A stretch of DNA of 64,000 nt from Ktedonobacteraceae bacterium (GTDB lineage: Bacteria > Chloroflexota > Ktedonobacteria > Ktedonobacterales > Ktedonobacteraceae), in NCBI GenBank assembly GCA_035653615.1, contig DASRBN010000035.1, positions 62,001 through 126,000 of the forward strand, given 5' to 3'. Below are positions 32,512 to 62,665 of the stretch, piece by piece; position 1 is the first letter of the stretch, and each line of letters begins with the position of its first letter. The translations under genes and the position numbers were made by a program. Below the pieces are notes generated by a model. It ran no database searches, was not told the origin of the DNA, and saw only the letters and a list, made by a program, of their open reading frames with translations.

Positions 32512-34995
32512 TCAGCTAGCTGTAAGTGACACCTGACGAGAGAGCATAATGGCGTCCGGGTCTTTGAGTAAATTGCCGGTCAGTATGGCAACTACGCGGT
32601 GTGAGGGATGGATGATGCCCTGGGCCGTGAGTTGCTTGAGGCCAGCAATCGAGGCGGCGGAGGCAGGTTCGCAGCCGATACCGGCGCTATCGATGATGGC
32701 TTTGGCGCGCAGAATCTCCTCATCGCTGACCTGGGCGACGATTCCTGCTGTCGCCTGAATGACCGTTTTCGCGCGTTGGAAGCTGACGGGATTGCCGATA
32801 TTGATGGCGGTGGCCAGGGTATGCGCCTTGACGGGCTGGAGAGCGACGAAACCATCGCGGTAACTCGCGTAAAACGGGTTCGCACCTGCCGCCTGGATGG
32901 AGGCGATGCGCGGAAGACGATCTATGATCCCCAAACGATACGCGCATAACAGGCCCATACCAAGCGCCGAGGTATTGCCAAGGTTGCCAGCTGGGAGCGC
33001 GATCCAATCGGGAGCATGCCAATGTAATTGTTGCAGGATGTCGAAGGCAAGCGATTGTTGGCCGAGCAGGCGAAAGGGATTGAGGGAATTGAGCAGGTAG
33101 ATGCCTTGATCGAGACACATGCGTTCCACGTCGAGCATGGCGCGGTCAAAGTCGCCGGGGACGTGGCGAATCTCGGCTCCATAGGCGATGGCCTGGGCGA
33201 GTTTTCCGGCGGCTACCTTGCCTTCGGGTAGCAGGACGATTGCATGCAGGCCAGCCTGGGCAGCGTAGGCGGCCATGGAAGCAGAAGTGTTGCCGGTCGA
33301 AGCGCAGGCGACGGCGGTCGCGCCCAACCATTTCGCGATGCTGACCGCTACCGTCATGCCACGGTCTTTGAAAGACCCGGTTGGATTCTCGCCCTCGTGC
33401 TTCACCCACAGGTGGTCGAGGCCTACAAACTCTCCGATGCGACCATGACCGTGACTATCCTGGGCGCGACCTGCTGGGTAGAGGTTGGTTAATCCTTCGG
33501 GCCGGGTGATGGGAGTGATGGCGGGCAGGGGAAGCAGGAGTTCGCGGAAGCGCCATACGCCGCTGCGGTCGATGGAATGCAGCGAGTTCAGACGCGCGTC
33601 GAAACGCTGCTGCCAGCGCGCGGCATTCATTTCTTCTCCGGTGTTGCCCTGCTCGATGTCTAATGGCTGTCCACAGGAACAGCGATAATCGGTGCGGGTG
33701 AGGGGGAAATGGGTGTTGCAATGGCTACAGGAAAGGGTGAGGGTGGGATGGGGCAGGGATTCTTCGCTGCGCTCAGAATGACATGGGGAGCCAGAATGAG
33801 ACGGCGAGAGGGAGCTGGTCGATTTTGTTGGTTCACATTCATTACCAGCGGTGGGCGGATGATTTGAGTTGGTGAGGGCGCGGGCCGATAAATCGGCGGT
33901 GGGCGCGATCAATCGGCCCCTACGGGGAACCGAGTGATTGGGTGGGTTGGGATGATCGATTTGGGGGGCCGATTGATTGAGCGAGGCGAGATGTTTTTCG
34001 GGAGCCGATTGATTGAGTGGGTTGGGGGGTTCGACTTCGATGGTTGCTCCCTGGTGATCGATTGCGGTGATAAGGATACGACCGGGAAGATTGAGCGATT
34101 GGGCTTTAAGCTCTAGAGTTGCCGCGACAGCCCGCGCGTTGCCGTTGGTAAGCGCGAGGATGCTGGAGCCGGCGCCTGAGAGGCAGGCTCCAATTGCGCC
34201 TGCCCGGCGCGCGGCGAGGAGTAAGTCAGGCAGTTGGGGAAAGATCTGCGCGCGATAGGGTTCGTGCATGCGATCATCCATGGCGGAGCCGATGCTGTGC
34301 AGGTCGCCATTCGCCAGGGCCGCGAGCAAGAGGGCGACGTGTCCGACGTTATGCACGGCGTGGCTGCGCGTATAGTGTTGGGGCAGTAGGGCTCGCACGG
34401 AGATGGTGTCCATCGGGAAGTCGGGTACGAAAAGGACGGCTTGCAGTCCGGCGGGTATCGAGGCGCGGATAGCGTGCCACTTTTCATCCTGCTCGCTCTT
34501 CGTCACGACGACAAGGCCGCCCAGGAGCGCGGCGGCGACATTATCGGCATGTTTGCCCTGCTCGAGTTCAACGGCTGCATGCAGTAAACCGGCGCGTTGT
34601 TGCGGTGAGGAAATGCGCCCGGCGAGGGCTTCGGCGGCAAGGATAGCGCCTACGACGGCGGTCGCGCTGCTGCCAAGTCCGCGACCAGGAGGGATGTCTA
34701 TACAGGCACGGATACGCATAGGGGGAACAGGTATTTGCAGAGTTTTCAGGCGCTCGCGGAGGACGCGGTAGAAGAGGTTGTGCTGATCTCTGGGCAATGC
34801 GGCGATGGCGGCATCATTGCACCATGCTGAAGAGATGTCGATGAGCGGTTCAGACTCGGCTGATATGTTTGCAGGCAAGAGCTGGATTTCGAATATGTTG
34901 TGTTGCTTGAGCGCAAGCCCAAGGCAGTCGAAGCCAGGGCCAAGATTGGCGCTGGTGGCGGGTACGCGCACCGTCACACGTGATGGCGAGAACAT
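32512..34995 (-). CDS. thrBC: Bifunctional homoserine kinase-threonine synthase fusion
   Basis: An 827-residue fusion for the last two steps of threonine synthesis. Residues 1-318 are ThrB, a GHMP kinase: 'RVPATSANLGPGFDCLGLAL' , the ATP loop 'PPGRGLGSSATAVVGA' and 'ACLSGAGSSILAL'. Residues about 420-827 are ThrC: zinc-ribbon-like 'CSHCNTHFPL...CSCG', PLP lysine in 'NPTGSFKDRGM', and 'ACASTGNTSASMAAYAA'. The linker (320-420) is low-complexity and contains translated intergenic repeats ('RGRLIAPTADLSARA', 'CHSERSEESLPH'). I know ThrB and ThrC normally as separate proteins, so the fusion probably arose by read-through of an intergenic spacer. The start at 34995 has AAGGA upstream. Both catalytic halves look intact. 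Confidence 0.9.
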   Translation of the reverse strand: MFSPSRVTVRVPATSANLGPGFDCLGLALKQHNIFEIQLLPANISAESEPLIDISSAWCNDAAIAALPRDQHNLFYRVLRERLKTLQIPVPPMRIRACIDIPPGRGLGSSATAVVGAILAAEALAGRISSPQQRAGLLHAAVELEQGKHADNVAAALLGGLVVVTKSEQDEKWHAIRASIPAGLQAVLFVPDFPMDTISVRALLPQHYTRSHAVHNVGHVALLLAALANGDLHSIGSAMDDRMHEPYRAQIFPQLPDLLLAARRAGAIGACLSGAGSSILALTNGNARAVAATLELKAQSLNLPGRILITAIDHQGATIEVEPPNPLNQSAPEKHLASLNQSAPQIDHPNPPNHSVPRRGRLIAPTADLSARALTNSNHPPTAGNECEPTKSTSSLSPSHSGSPCHSERSEESLPHPTLTLSCSHCNTHFPLTRTDYRCSCGQPLDIEQGNTGEEMNAARWQQRFDARLNSLHSIDRSGVWRFRELLLPLPAITPITRPEGLTNLYPAGRAQDSHGHGRIGEFVGLDHLWVKHEGENPTGSFKDRGMTVAVSIAKWLGATAVACASTGNTSASMAAYAAQAGLHAIVLLPEGKVAAGKLAQAIAYGAEIRHVPGDFDRAMLDVERMCLDQGIYLLNSLNPFRLLGQQSLAFDILQQLHWHAPDWIALPAGNLGNTSALGMGLLCAYRLGIIDRLPRIASIQAAGANPFYASYRDGFVALQPVKAHTLATAINIGNPVSFQRAKTVIQATAGIVAQVSDEEILRAKAIIDSAGIGCEPASAASIAGLKQLTAQGIIHPSHRVVAILTGNLLKDPDAIMLSRQVSLTAS
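33755..33931. repeat. Two dispersed repeat units inside the thrB-thrC linker
   Basis: 33755-33786 is a copy of the 'TTCTTCGCTGCGCTCAGAAT' family found also at 59268-59333 and 62700-62845. 33881-33927 is a copy of the 'CGATCAATCGGCCCCTAC' family found also near 40370, 51150 and 52505. Both are read in frame as linker of the fusion protein. Confidence 0.85.
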
Positions 34996-35256
34996 AGGTA
35001 TTCCTTCCATTTGCTAACAGTATTCACAAGGGACAGGATTTGGAATGCCATGCAGGGATTCCAATCTGACACATCTCAAAAAGGTGTGTGTGAATGTGTT
35101 AGCAGATGGTATTGCCGCCGGTGGTAAGCCGGCGGTTATGTTCCTCCTCAGGGTGACAATGCGTTAGTTGCATGCAGATGGTCCTTAGAAAAGGGTTCTC
35201 CAATTTTGCTGCTATGTACAGCTTTGTTTTTTGTCGTCACATGGATGACTTTGTAT
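34996..35256 (-). other. Long untranslated leader of thrBC
   Basis: About 260 bases lie between the inferred transcription start and the ATG. They include a GC hairpin CCGCCGG...CCGGCGG (35115-35135), a weaker inverted repeat TGGAAT...ATTCCA (35040-35062), and two direct copies of GCAGATGGT (35102, 35174). No coding frame or known riboswitch consensus is seen. It could be an attenuator. Confidence 0.35.
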
Positions 35257-38079: not shown

Positions 38080-38649
38080 TTGGACAGCAAGAGATTTGAC
38101 AATTTCAGCGAGCAGGCCAGGAAGGTCTTGAGCTTCGCTCAGGAAGAAGCGCAGCGCCTCCAACATGATGCTGTCGACACCGAACATCTCTTGCTGGGTT
38201 TGATACGCGAGATAGAGGGAGACGCTACCAACATATTGAGCAACCTTGGTGTGGACCTGACCATGCTTCGGTCTGCTGTTGAGTTGAGGGTTGAACGTGG
38301 AGATCGCGCTATTCCTGGCGAAATTGCCTTCACTCCGAGCGTCAACAAAGCGCTCGAACTCGCTGTGGATGAAGCTCGCCACCTGAATCATCACACGATT
38401 GGAATGGAACATCTGCTGCTGGGCCTGATGCGCGAGGGTGAGGGCATTGCCACCGGGGTACTCCAGAGCCTGGGTGTCAGCCTGGAGAAAGCGCGTGCGG
38501 CAGCCATATATATGCTCAGCTCGGCAGGCAATCTTCAGAAGTCACAAGTACCACCACGGCTAAAACAAGGGTTCGAATTGCTGGGTGATCGCTACCGGTT
38601 TCCAGGCTCTACTGGGCGAGGCAGCAAGATAATGAGCTCTACTGGCTGA
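38080..38649 (+). CDS. Clp_N (ClpA/ClpC N-terminal) double-repeat protein, 5' part of a Clp_N-kinase locus
   Basis: A 189-residue product from a TTG start behind a G-rich ribosome site. Two Clp_N repeats are visible: 'FSEQARKVLSFAQEEAQRL' with 'DTEHLLLGLIREIEGDA', and 'ALELAVDEARHLNHHTIG' with 'MEHLLLGLMREGEGIA'. No AAA+ domain follows. Residues 165-189 ('LLGDRYRFPGSTGRGSKIM') match the beginning of a Ser/Thr kinase domain with its glycine loop, and then a TGA at 38647 interrupts the frame. The same frame continues as the kinase below, so this is probably the front of one broken gene. As a separate protein it could still act as a Clp_N adaptor-like domain. Confidence 0.8.
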   Translation: MDSKRFDNFSEQARKVLSFAQEEAQRLQHDAVDTEHLLLGLIREIEGDATNILSNLGVDLTMLRSAVELRVERGDRAIPGEIAFTPSVNKALELAVDEARHLNHHTIGMEHLLLGLMREGEGIATGVLQSLGVSLEKARAAAIYMLSSAGNLQKSQVPPRLKQGFELLGDRYRFPGSTGRGSKIMSSTG

Positions 38650-38670
38650 GATACTCATCTGAATCGCCTC

Positions 38671-39393
38671 GTGACCATTCAAGTGCTCTATGATGTAGAA
38701 AGCGCTGATCCCGGGCTGGTGACGCGCTTGCAGCAGGAAGCGAAGGCAACCTCCTCCCTGTACCACCCCAATATTGTGCAGGTCTATGACGGTGTCCTAA
38801 GCCATGGAAATTTTTATCTGGTGAGGGAGCCGTTTGGAGGGATGGAACTGCGCCGTTATATACTGCGTACACAGGGCAGGCTTGCCGTCGAGCAGGCCAT
38901 CAGGATTGCGCGCGATGTCGCACGTGGTCTGGGCACGGCCCATCAAAAGGGATTGGTGCATGGCAATGTCAAGCCGTACCATATTCTGATGGGACACAAC
39001 GGCCTGGTCAAACTGGACGGCCTGGGCTATGCCCGCGCCTATAAGGAGATTGCTGCCTACCAGCGGCGCACCACTCCAGGGATGACGCTAGCAATAGGGA
39101 CGTTTGACGCGCCTGAGTTGGCGCTGGGGGCGATGGTGACTCCGGCTGCAGATGTCTACGCGCTAGGCATGGTACTCTACGAGATGCTCGCCGGCCGCTT
39201 GCCTTTTGATCGTTACTCGCCTCAAGAGGTGGCTATGCAAGAAACGCAAGACCCACTCGCACCACCCAGCCGGTACAATCCCAACATGCCTCCAGACGTG
39301 GAAGCGGTTATTATGAGCTGTTTGGAGCGCGTCCCGACACAGCGTTTCCTGAACGGTCATGCACTCGCCGATGCCCTGGAACGTTTGTTATGA
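38671..39393 (+). pseudogene. Ser/Thr kinase-like domain lacking catalytic residues, in frame with upstream Clp_N part
   Basis: The frame runs without interruption from the TGA at 38647; a GTG at 38671 could start translation. The kinase fold is clear ('LYHPNIVQVYDGV', 'FYLVREPFGGMELRRYI', 'ADVYALGMVLYEMLAGRLPF'), but key residues are lost: the beta-3 lysine position reads Q ('TIQVL'), HRD reads HGN ('LVHGNVKPYHIL'), and DFG reads DGL ('KLDGLGYA'). Even read through, it would be a pseudokinase. It may be a decaying gene or a scaffold. Confidence 0.75.
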
Positions 39394-40324: not shown

Positions 40325-40451
40325 GGGGCCGATCATGAGTTTTCGCAAATTATTCTGGTAACCCCGCGGGGGCCGATGAATCGGCGGTGGGCGCGATCAA
40401 TCGACCCCTACGGGTTGAAGCGGGCGACCACGAGGGTACGCCCCTACGGGT
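40325..40451. repeat. Dispersed G+C-rich repeat block
   Basis: 40369-40413 is a copy of the 'CGATCAATCGGCCCCTAC' family (here with one change), preceded by a GGGGCCGAT...AAATTATTC segment shared with 52478-52505. 40421-40451 is a copy of the 'GCGGGCGACC...TACGCCCCTAC' family also seen at 51121 and 55202. The block ends beside the stop of the MFS gene. Confidence 0.8.
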
Positions 40452-61339: not shown

Positions 61340-62665
61340 ATGAAAATATGTACGTTTTGTGGAACGAAAAATCACGACGATGAGAGCTTCTGCACGCATT
61401 GCGGGGCATCTCTGGATTCGTCTCCTGCCAGCGGAAATGTGGATACAAGCCTGCCCGCAAGCACCACGAACACCACACAGTTCCTGATTCCGGGCGCTCA
61501 GTTGCAGGAGGGGCGCTATGTTATCAAGAAGATATTGGGGCAGGGAGGAATGGGTACGTTAGCGCTGGCTATCGATACGCGCCTCGTCGATAAGCCTGTG
61601 GTTATCAAGGAACTGATTGCCGAGCATGCCGACCCAACAGAAGATGTGCGCAACTTTCAACGCGAGGTGCAGACGCTGGCGCATCTCGACCACCCGCTCA
61701 TTCCGGCGGTGACCGACCACTTTCAGGAGGGGTCGCACTACTTTATGGTGCAGGAATACGTCGAGGGTGAGAACCTGGATGAGCGAATGGAGCGCATCCG
61801 GCGACCGATGGATGAACAGGAAGCGCTCACCTATGCCGCGGAAGTGCTTGATATTCTGGATTACCTGGAGCAGCAGAGACCACCGATTGTGCATCGCGAT
61901 ATCAAGCCGGCCAATATTATTATCGGGGCCAGGGATCAAAAGGCCCACCTGGTAGACTTTGGCATTGCCCGCCTCTATGCTCCCTCGAAGGCACAGCGCA
62001 AACAGACGACCGCCCTCGGCACGCCTGGATATGCTCCGCCGGAACAATACCAGGGCAATGCTGAGCCACGTTCTGACCTGTATGCACTGGCGGCGACGCT
62101 GTATTACCTGTTGACGAATCGCGATCCGACCGAGCATCCGTTATTCCAGTTTCCGCCCGCGCGCACAATTAATCCACGGTTGTCTTCTGAGGTAGAGGCG
62201 TTGCTGGAACGCGCGCTGGCGCTGGATATCAACCGGCGCTACCAGACGGCGTTGGAGATGAAACGCGATATCGATGCTATCCTGTATCCAACGCTTGAGA
62301 GTCCAGGGCTGCAAAGTACAGGTATAGGGACGACTCACGCACCCGGACAGTCCAGTCCGTTAGGGCGCATACCGATTTCAGGGCCGTTGGGGGGATATTC
62401 ATCCGGCCAGATGCAACAGTTTTATCAACCACCTGTGTCACGACCGGTAACACGCCGGTCGCCTTTCGCGCCTTACCCGCCTTCACATACGTTCGGCAGG
62501 CAGCAACAGCCATCACCCTCACCCGGCAAGCAGCCACTTACAAGCAATGTGGCTTTCGTTTTTTTCCTGTTCGTGCTGTTCATTTTCCTGCTCGGTATCG
62601 TGGGCTACTTCCTGCTGAGTTACGCGCATGGCCTGGGCGCTGTTCCTACCAGTATGCCGTTCTAG
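61340..62665 (+). CDS. Ser/Thr protein kinase with N-terminal zinc ribbon and C-terminal membrane segment
   Basis: A 441-residue kinase. Residues 4-22 are a zinc ribbon ('CTFCGTKNHDDESFCTHCG'). The kinase domain (about 58-315) is intact: glycine loop 'ILGQGGMGTLALAIDT', Lys in 'PVVIKELIAE', 'IVHRDIKPANIII', 'HLVDFGIARLY' and 'GTPGYAPPEQY'. A Pro/Ser-rich linker (320-405) leads to a membrane helix near 410-432 ('FVFFLFVLFIFLLGIVGYFL'), so the kinase faces the cytoplasm. Substrate and signal unknown. ATG at 61340, weak ribosome site. Confidence 0.9.
   Translation: MKICTFCGTKNHDDESFCTHCGASLDSSPASGNVDTSLPASTTNTTQFLIPGAQLQEGRYVIKKILGQGGMGTLALAIDTRLVDKPVVIKELIAEHADPTEDVRNFQREVQTLAHLDHPLIPAVTDHFQEGSHYFMVQEYVEGENLDERMERIRRPMDEQEALTYAAEVLDILDYLEQQRPPIVHRDIKPANIIIGARDQKAHLVDFGIARLYAPSKAQRKQTTALGTPGYAPPEQYQGNAEPRSDLYALAATLYYLLTNRDPTEHPLFQFPPARTINPRLSSEVEALLERALALDINRRYQTALEMKRDIDAILYPTLESPGLQSTGIGTTHAPGQSSPLGRIPISGPLGGYSSGQMQQFYQPPVSRPVTRRSPFAPYPPSHTFGRQQQPSPSPGKQPLTSNVAFVFFLFVLFIFLLGIVGYFLLSYAHGLGAVPTSMPF

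Follow-up and report, generated by a model that had tools for sequence, protein, structure and literature searches.

The interrupted locus

The gene described here lies on the forward strand of the window, that is, the whole stretch of 64,000 nucleotides that was analysed, and occupies one reading frame that is broken by exactly one internal stop (table 1). It opens with a TTG codon, upstream of which stands a G-rich stretch (GGGGGGG). The part before the TGA matches Clp_N (PF02861; E = 9.3e-29, in two stretches), and the part after it matches the Pfam Pkinase profile (E = 1.1e-29), which it enters at position 42. GC at the three codon positions amounts to 0.67/0.42/0.62 in the second half and 0.66/0.39/0.69 in the PknB gene of the same genome. 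Because of these domain matches and of the resemblance to PknB in codon-position GC, a chance origin of the frame is excluded.

Table 1. Features of the interrupted locus (positions in the window)
Feature	Position	Strand	Remarks
Full locus	38080-39393	+	Single frame (frame 1), TTG start to terminal stop
First ORF, 189 aa	38080..38649	+	Two Clp_N repeats, linker, kinase beta-1 and degenerate glycine loop; ends at the TGA
Start of kinase domain, LGDRYRF...GRGSKIMSSTG	38581..38649	+	From codon and frameshift-aware alignment to PknB
Imperfect 15-nt direct repeat, GCTCTACTGGGCGAG / GCTCTACTGGCTGAG	38606..38650	+	13/15 identical, spacing 30
In-frame TGA	38647..38649	+	Residue 190, in beta-2; PknB of the same genome has an Arg codon here
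Second half, open for 247 codons	38650..39393	+	PknB-type pseudokinase, end of beta-2 to last helix

The codon alignment to the genome's own PknB runs ungapped across the stop, with GRG opposite GRG and Gly-stop-Asp opposite Gly-Arg-Asp, and in the frameshift-aware alignment to the PknB profile the straight frame was retained whenever the frameshift penalty was at least 7. Given this register and the preference for the straight frame, the interruption is one nonsense codon without a hidden frameshift, which bears out the earlier note in its description of a single in-frame TGA within an otherwise continuous frame. Compensating frameshifts in the glycine loop were considered and rejected, as the straight frame wins unless frameshifts are nearly free; the other frames of this region read LLGE and ELYWLR, and only in the straight one do GRG, G and D line up with PknB. 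The locus has the disrupted reading frame expected of a pseudogene. In the same comparison with the genome's own PknB, GRG is retained at the start of the kinase whereas the GGMATIY of PknB is gone, and the glycine loop beside the TGA is degenerate over about 12 codons. The TGA is contained in the second copy (GCTCTACTGGCTGAG) of a direct repeat; a comparable 15-nt repeat is present in 5 of 853 stretches of 75 nt in the window, and is thus rare, yet our argument does not need it.

Other features were seen elsewhere in the window. At 40325-40428 there is a stretch of about 90 bp that is found about 40 times across the genome (77-98% identity) and represents a dispersed intergenic repeat family. 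On the reverse strand, an 832-aa frame (32512-35010) joins homoserine-kinase-like (GHMP) and threonine-synthase-like (PALP) domains through a long low-complexity linker; the linker includes CHSERSEES, which resembles a translated dispersed repeat. A further kinase, with an N-terminal zinc ribbon, is encoded on the forward strand at 61340-62665.

The two halves and their sources

The first half is 68% identical to the ClpC of the same genome over 142 residues, and keeps at least 91 of the 137 positions that are invariant among the compared ClpC proteins, a lower bound since the count takes no account of a one-residue shift that follows position 70. The Clp_N repeats are thus indeed well kept, as had been proposed. 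This half is modelled confidently as a ClpC N-domain (match to the ClpC1 NTD 6ucr, TM 0.92 by target). In the alignment to the genome's own ClpC, the glutamates E32 and E106 are retained, and the changes include T7S, R9Q and K85N (beyond position 70 the numbering was corrected by eye for a one-residue offset). E32 and E106 belong to the phosphoarginine pockets, and R9 and K85 anchor the N-domain within the ClpC resting complex (PMC12583610). The gene thus has the Clp_N domain of ClpC/Hsp100 proteins and resembles ClpC in what is the source of its first half, but differs from it in lacking the AAA+ ATPase modules and in its altered resting-state anchors. A search with PF00217 (arginine kinase) gave no match, but as it gave none in the control genomes either, this result carries no weight. 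We also observed, in a related genome, a ClpC N-domain with LLLDWSVRVKG... as its aberrant tail, apparently frameshifted (L086:865-1281, reverse strand; G017:C1 3839346-3839756).

The best NCBIfam match of the second half is PknB_PASTA_kin (NF033483; E = 8.3e-62), with a score of 210 bits where the cut-off is 450, and its identity to the genome's own PknB is 52%. The beta-3 Lys is replaced by Gln, HRD by HGN and DFG by DGL, which confirms the loss of all three motifs claimed by the earlier note. Of 124 residues that never vary among 30 PknB proteins, 79 are retained, including APE, the alpha-F Asp and an Arg of the C-lobe; the catalytic residues are among those lost. Insertions and deletions relative to PknB are single codons only. 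The frame stops at the last kinase helix, without a transmembrane or PASTA part, and only kinase families match the second half. When modelled alone, this half gives a confident kinase fold (pTM 0.84), which together with the retained invariants upholds the claim that the rest of the fold is kept. In the predicted model of the read-through protein both domains are confident and the activation segment is disordered, and the position of the stop falls within strand beta-2 (residues 184-191); the fold matches of the models include PknB 2fum and ClpC1-NTD 6ucr. By sequence and predicted models, the second half thus shows what defines a bacterial pseudokinase, namely a kinase fold whose catalytic motifs are lost.

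These comparisons show the predicted product to be a chimera in which the N-domain of ClpC is joined to the kinase domain of a PASTA kinase of the PknB type; the genome has related genes for both. The PknB/Stk1-type PASTA kinases are the source of the kinase half, which is unlike them in missing the catalytic Lys/HRD/DFG residues and the transmembrane and PASTA parts. The bacterial Ser/Thr pseudokinases ActPs1-3, GLW and CP1 resemble it in having lost all three catalytic motifs while keeping the fold. The present gene differs in deriving from PknB itself in one lineage, and in a product that is predicted to be soluble and is fused to Clp_N. With the MviN pseudokinase domain, an example of this kind, there is a known case of a pseudokinase acting in the PknB pathway, and the same review does not mention a Clp_N fusion (PMC12599244); our search of an open-literature collection for Clp_N together with a pseudokinase found no paper. 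The domain combination is unusual, the stop itself probably ordinary.

Selection and distribution

In a codon model with branch-specific omega, the pseudokinase branch takes a value of about 0.25, which is rough since synonymous change is near saturation. Setting omega to 1 on this branch was rejected (4.4 log units worse, 2dlnL 8.7, p about 0.003), and setting it to the PknB background of 0.03 was worse by 7.1 log units. The earlier note had named relaxed selection in relatives among the grounds for abandoning its reading; this holds only in part, since constraint on the kinase branch is looser than on PknB without the branch being neutral. The dN/dS comparison that it had proposed for both halves is informative for the kinase branch, whereas on the Clp_N branch the fit hardly changes for omega between about 0.3 and 1.5. 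When the C-terminal half was evolved neutrally in simulation to the fitted distance, about 4 stops were expected and none arose in about 1% of the runs; the actual half shows no further stop and no frameshift. The omega of 0.25 and the lack of further damage together argue for protein-level selection on the kinase half until recently. The codon data thus show that purifying selection shaped this half during most of its history, and that the gene was maintained as a protein for most of its life, with a stop that is either young or bypassed. A branch-averaged omega cannot date the stop, and it is the absence of further damage, in one genome sequence, that makes us call it "recent".

Orthologs were searched for in genome sets that overlap one another and include the genome of the window. 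With a threshold of E <= 1e-86 none turned up among 29 genomes from the family or 400 from the phylum, and with E <= 1e-87 none among 47 from the class; a scan of the genome's contigs for related loci returned distant kinases only. The nearest genomes listed have their ordinary PknB as the best kinase match, at 46-54% identity, and the kinases that rank next are far weaker. Because no other locus in the compared sets reaches the level of an ortholog, only one genome is known to carry the gene, and this genome alone represents its genus among those compared.

Readings of the stop codon

Bacterial in-frame stops often persist with dN/dS below 1, and a stop alone is therefore no proof of a loss of function (Belinky et al. 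2021, PMC7918605). The genes of that study resemble ours in their coding signal past the stop; the inference there came from relatives, of which the present gene has none among the compared genomes. As such stops with preserved dN/dS are reported to be widespread, the main rival to a nonsense mutation remains a functional stop, at which ordinary ribosomal readthrough would yield a little full-length protein beside much Clp_N-only product in a fixed ratio. This we regard as unlikely. The second half is intact and was under past selection, which speaks for readthrough, but no ortholog among the compared genomes shows the stop conserved, the RNA around the TGA is ordinary rather than structured (fold z-scores 0.1 to 0.3), and TGA is a normal stop here, ending 9 of the 21 large ORFs of the window, a count by which we also rejected a reassigned code. 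Less credible again is a programmed stop, where readthrough would set the ratio between a free decoy of the ClpC N-domain and a longer scaffold tying PknB signalling to ClpC proteolysis; we consider it quite improbable. A promoter and terminator scan gave nothing exceeding shuffled sequences.

The genome does encode a selenocysteine machinery, with SelA, SelB (TIGR00475, 362 bits against a cut-off of 242), a tRNA-Sec with anticodon TCA, and a formate dehydrogenase (L066; G000:C33, about 143345-144931) whose one in-frame TGA lies at what we take to be the usual selenocysteine site of that enzyme. Downstream of the formate dehydrogenase TGA there is a hairpin of -18.0 kcal/mol whose loop contains GGUCU, whereas the hairpin after the TGA of the pseudokinase gene reaches only -4.2 kcal/mol (z about 0) and Rfam gave no SECIS match. 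In the compared PknB proteins, the residue facing the TGA is Arg, Gln, His, Val or Tyr, and never Cys. Selenocysteine, for which the gene has a TGA and the genome the machinery, but for which both the hairpin and a Cys homolog fail, was accordingly rejected, its chance being negligible. As a separate observation, selB adjoins pknB in this genome (L051).

Substitution errors of a single base are rare in consensus assemblies, and this speaks against a sequencing or assembly error within an intact gene, as does the degeneracy of the adjoining glycine loop itself; with a single genome sequence and a frame that is otherwise clean, such an error keeps some small likelihood. The slim chance that we give to two separately translated and assembling proteins, one comprising Clp_N with beta-1 and the glycine loop and the other the kinase fragment from beta-3 on, owes something to GTG codons at 38671 and 38683, near enough for re-initiation, and to the good model of the C-terminal half alone. 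Just after the TGA, however, no in-frame start has a clear ribosome-binding site, and neither GTG is preceded by one; the first half would hold merely a degenerate beta-1/beta-2 segment and the C-terminal half would be without these strands. The two interacting proteins envisaged by the earlier note are thus weakly supported.

Start of decay, the remaining proposal of that note, fits best with a lone nonsense codon, past purifying selection and a glycine-loop consensus that is already lost. With moderate confidence, we favor a lineage-specific scaffold pseudokinase that was recently cut by a nonsense mutation and whose Clp_N half can still be expressed. The full-length protein would have been a soluble, non-catalytic scaffold or decoy. 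Through its Clp_N part, in which the pocket glutamates are kept and the R9 and K85 anchors changed, it could take up ligands of the ClpC N-domain; through its pseudokinase it could dock on PknB or on partners of PknB, and in this way ClpC proteolysis would be coupled to kinase signalling. For the TGA, a recent nonsense mutation is the likeliest origin, in a glycine loop freed from ATP binding; that this loop had already lost its consensus is to be expected once ATP binding no longer matters. The present main product would be a free Clp_N protein of 189 aa, and the pseudokinase half would be at the start of decay.

A fusion of the ClpC N-domain with a dead PknB kinase would join Ser/Thr kinase signalling directly and physically with regulated proteolysis. 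If the stop is functional, it would represent a rare and testable case of a decoy-to-scaffold ratio set by readthrough. Under the nonsense mutation that we favor, the stop would be a snapshot of a chimera that was gained, lost catalysis and is then itself being lost.
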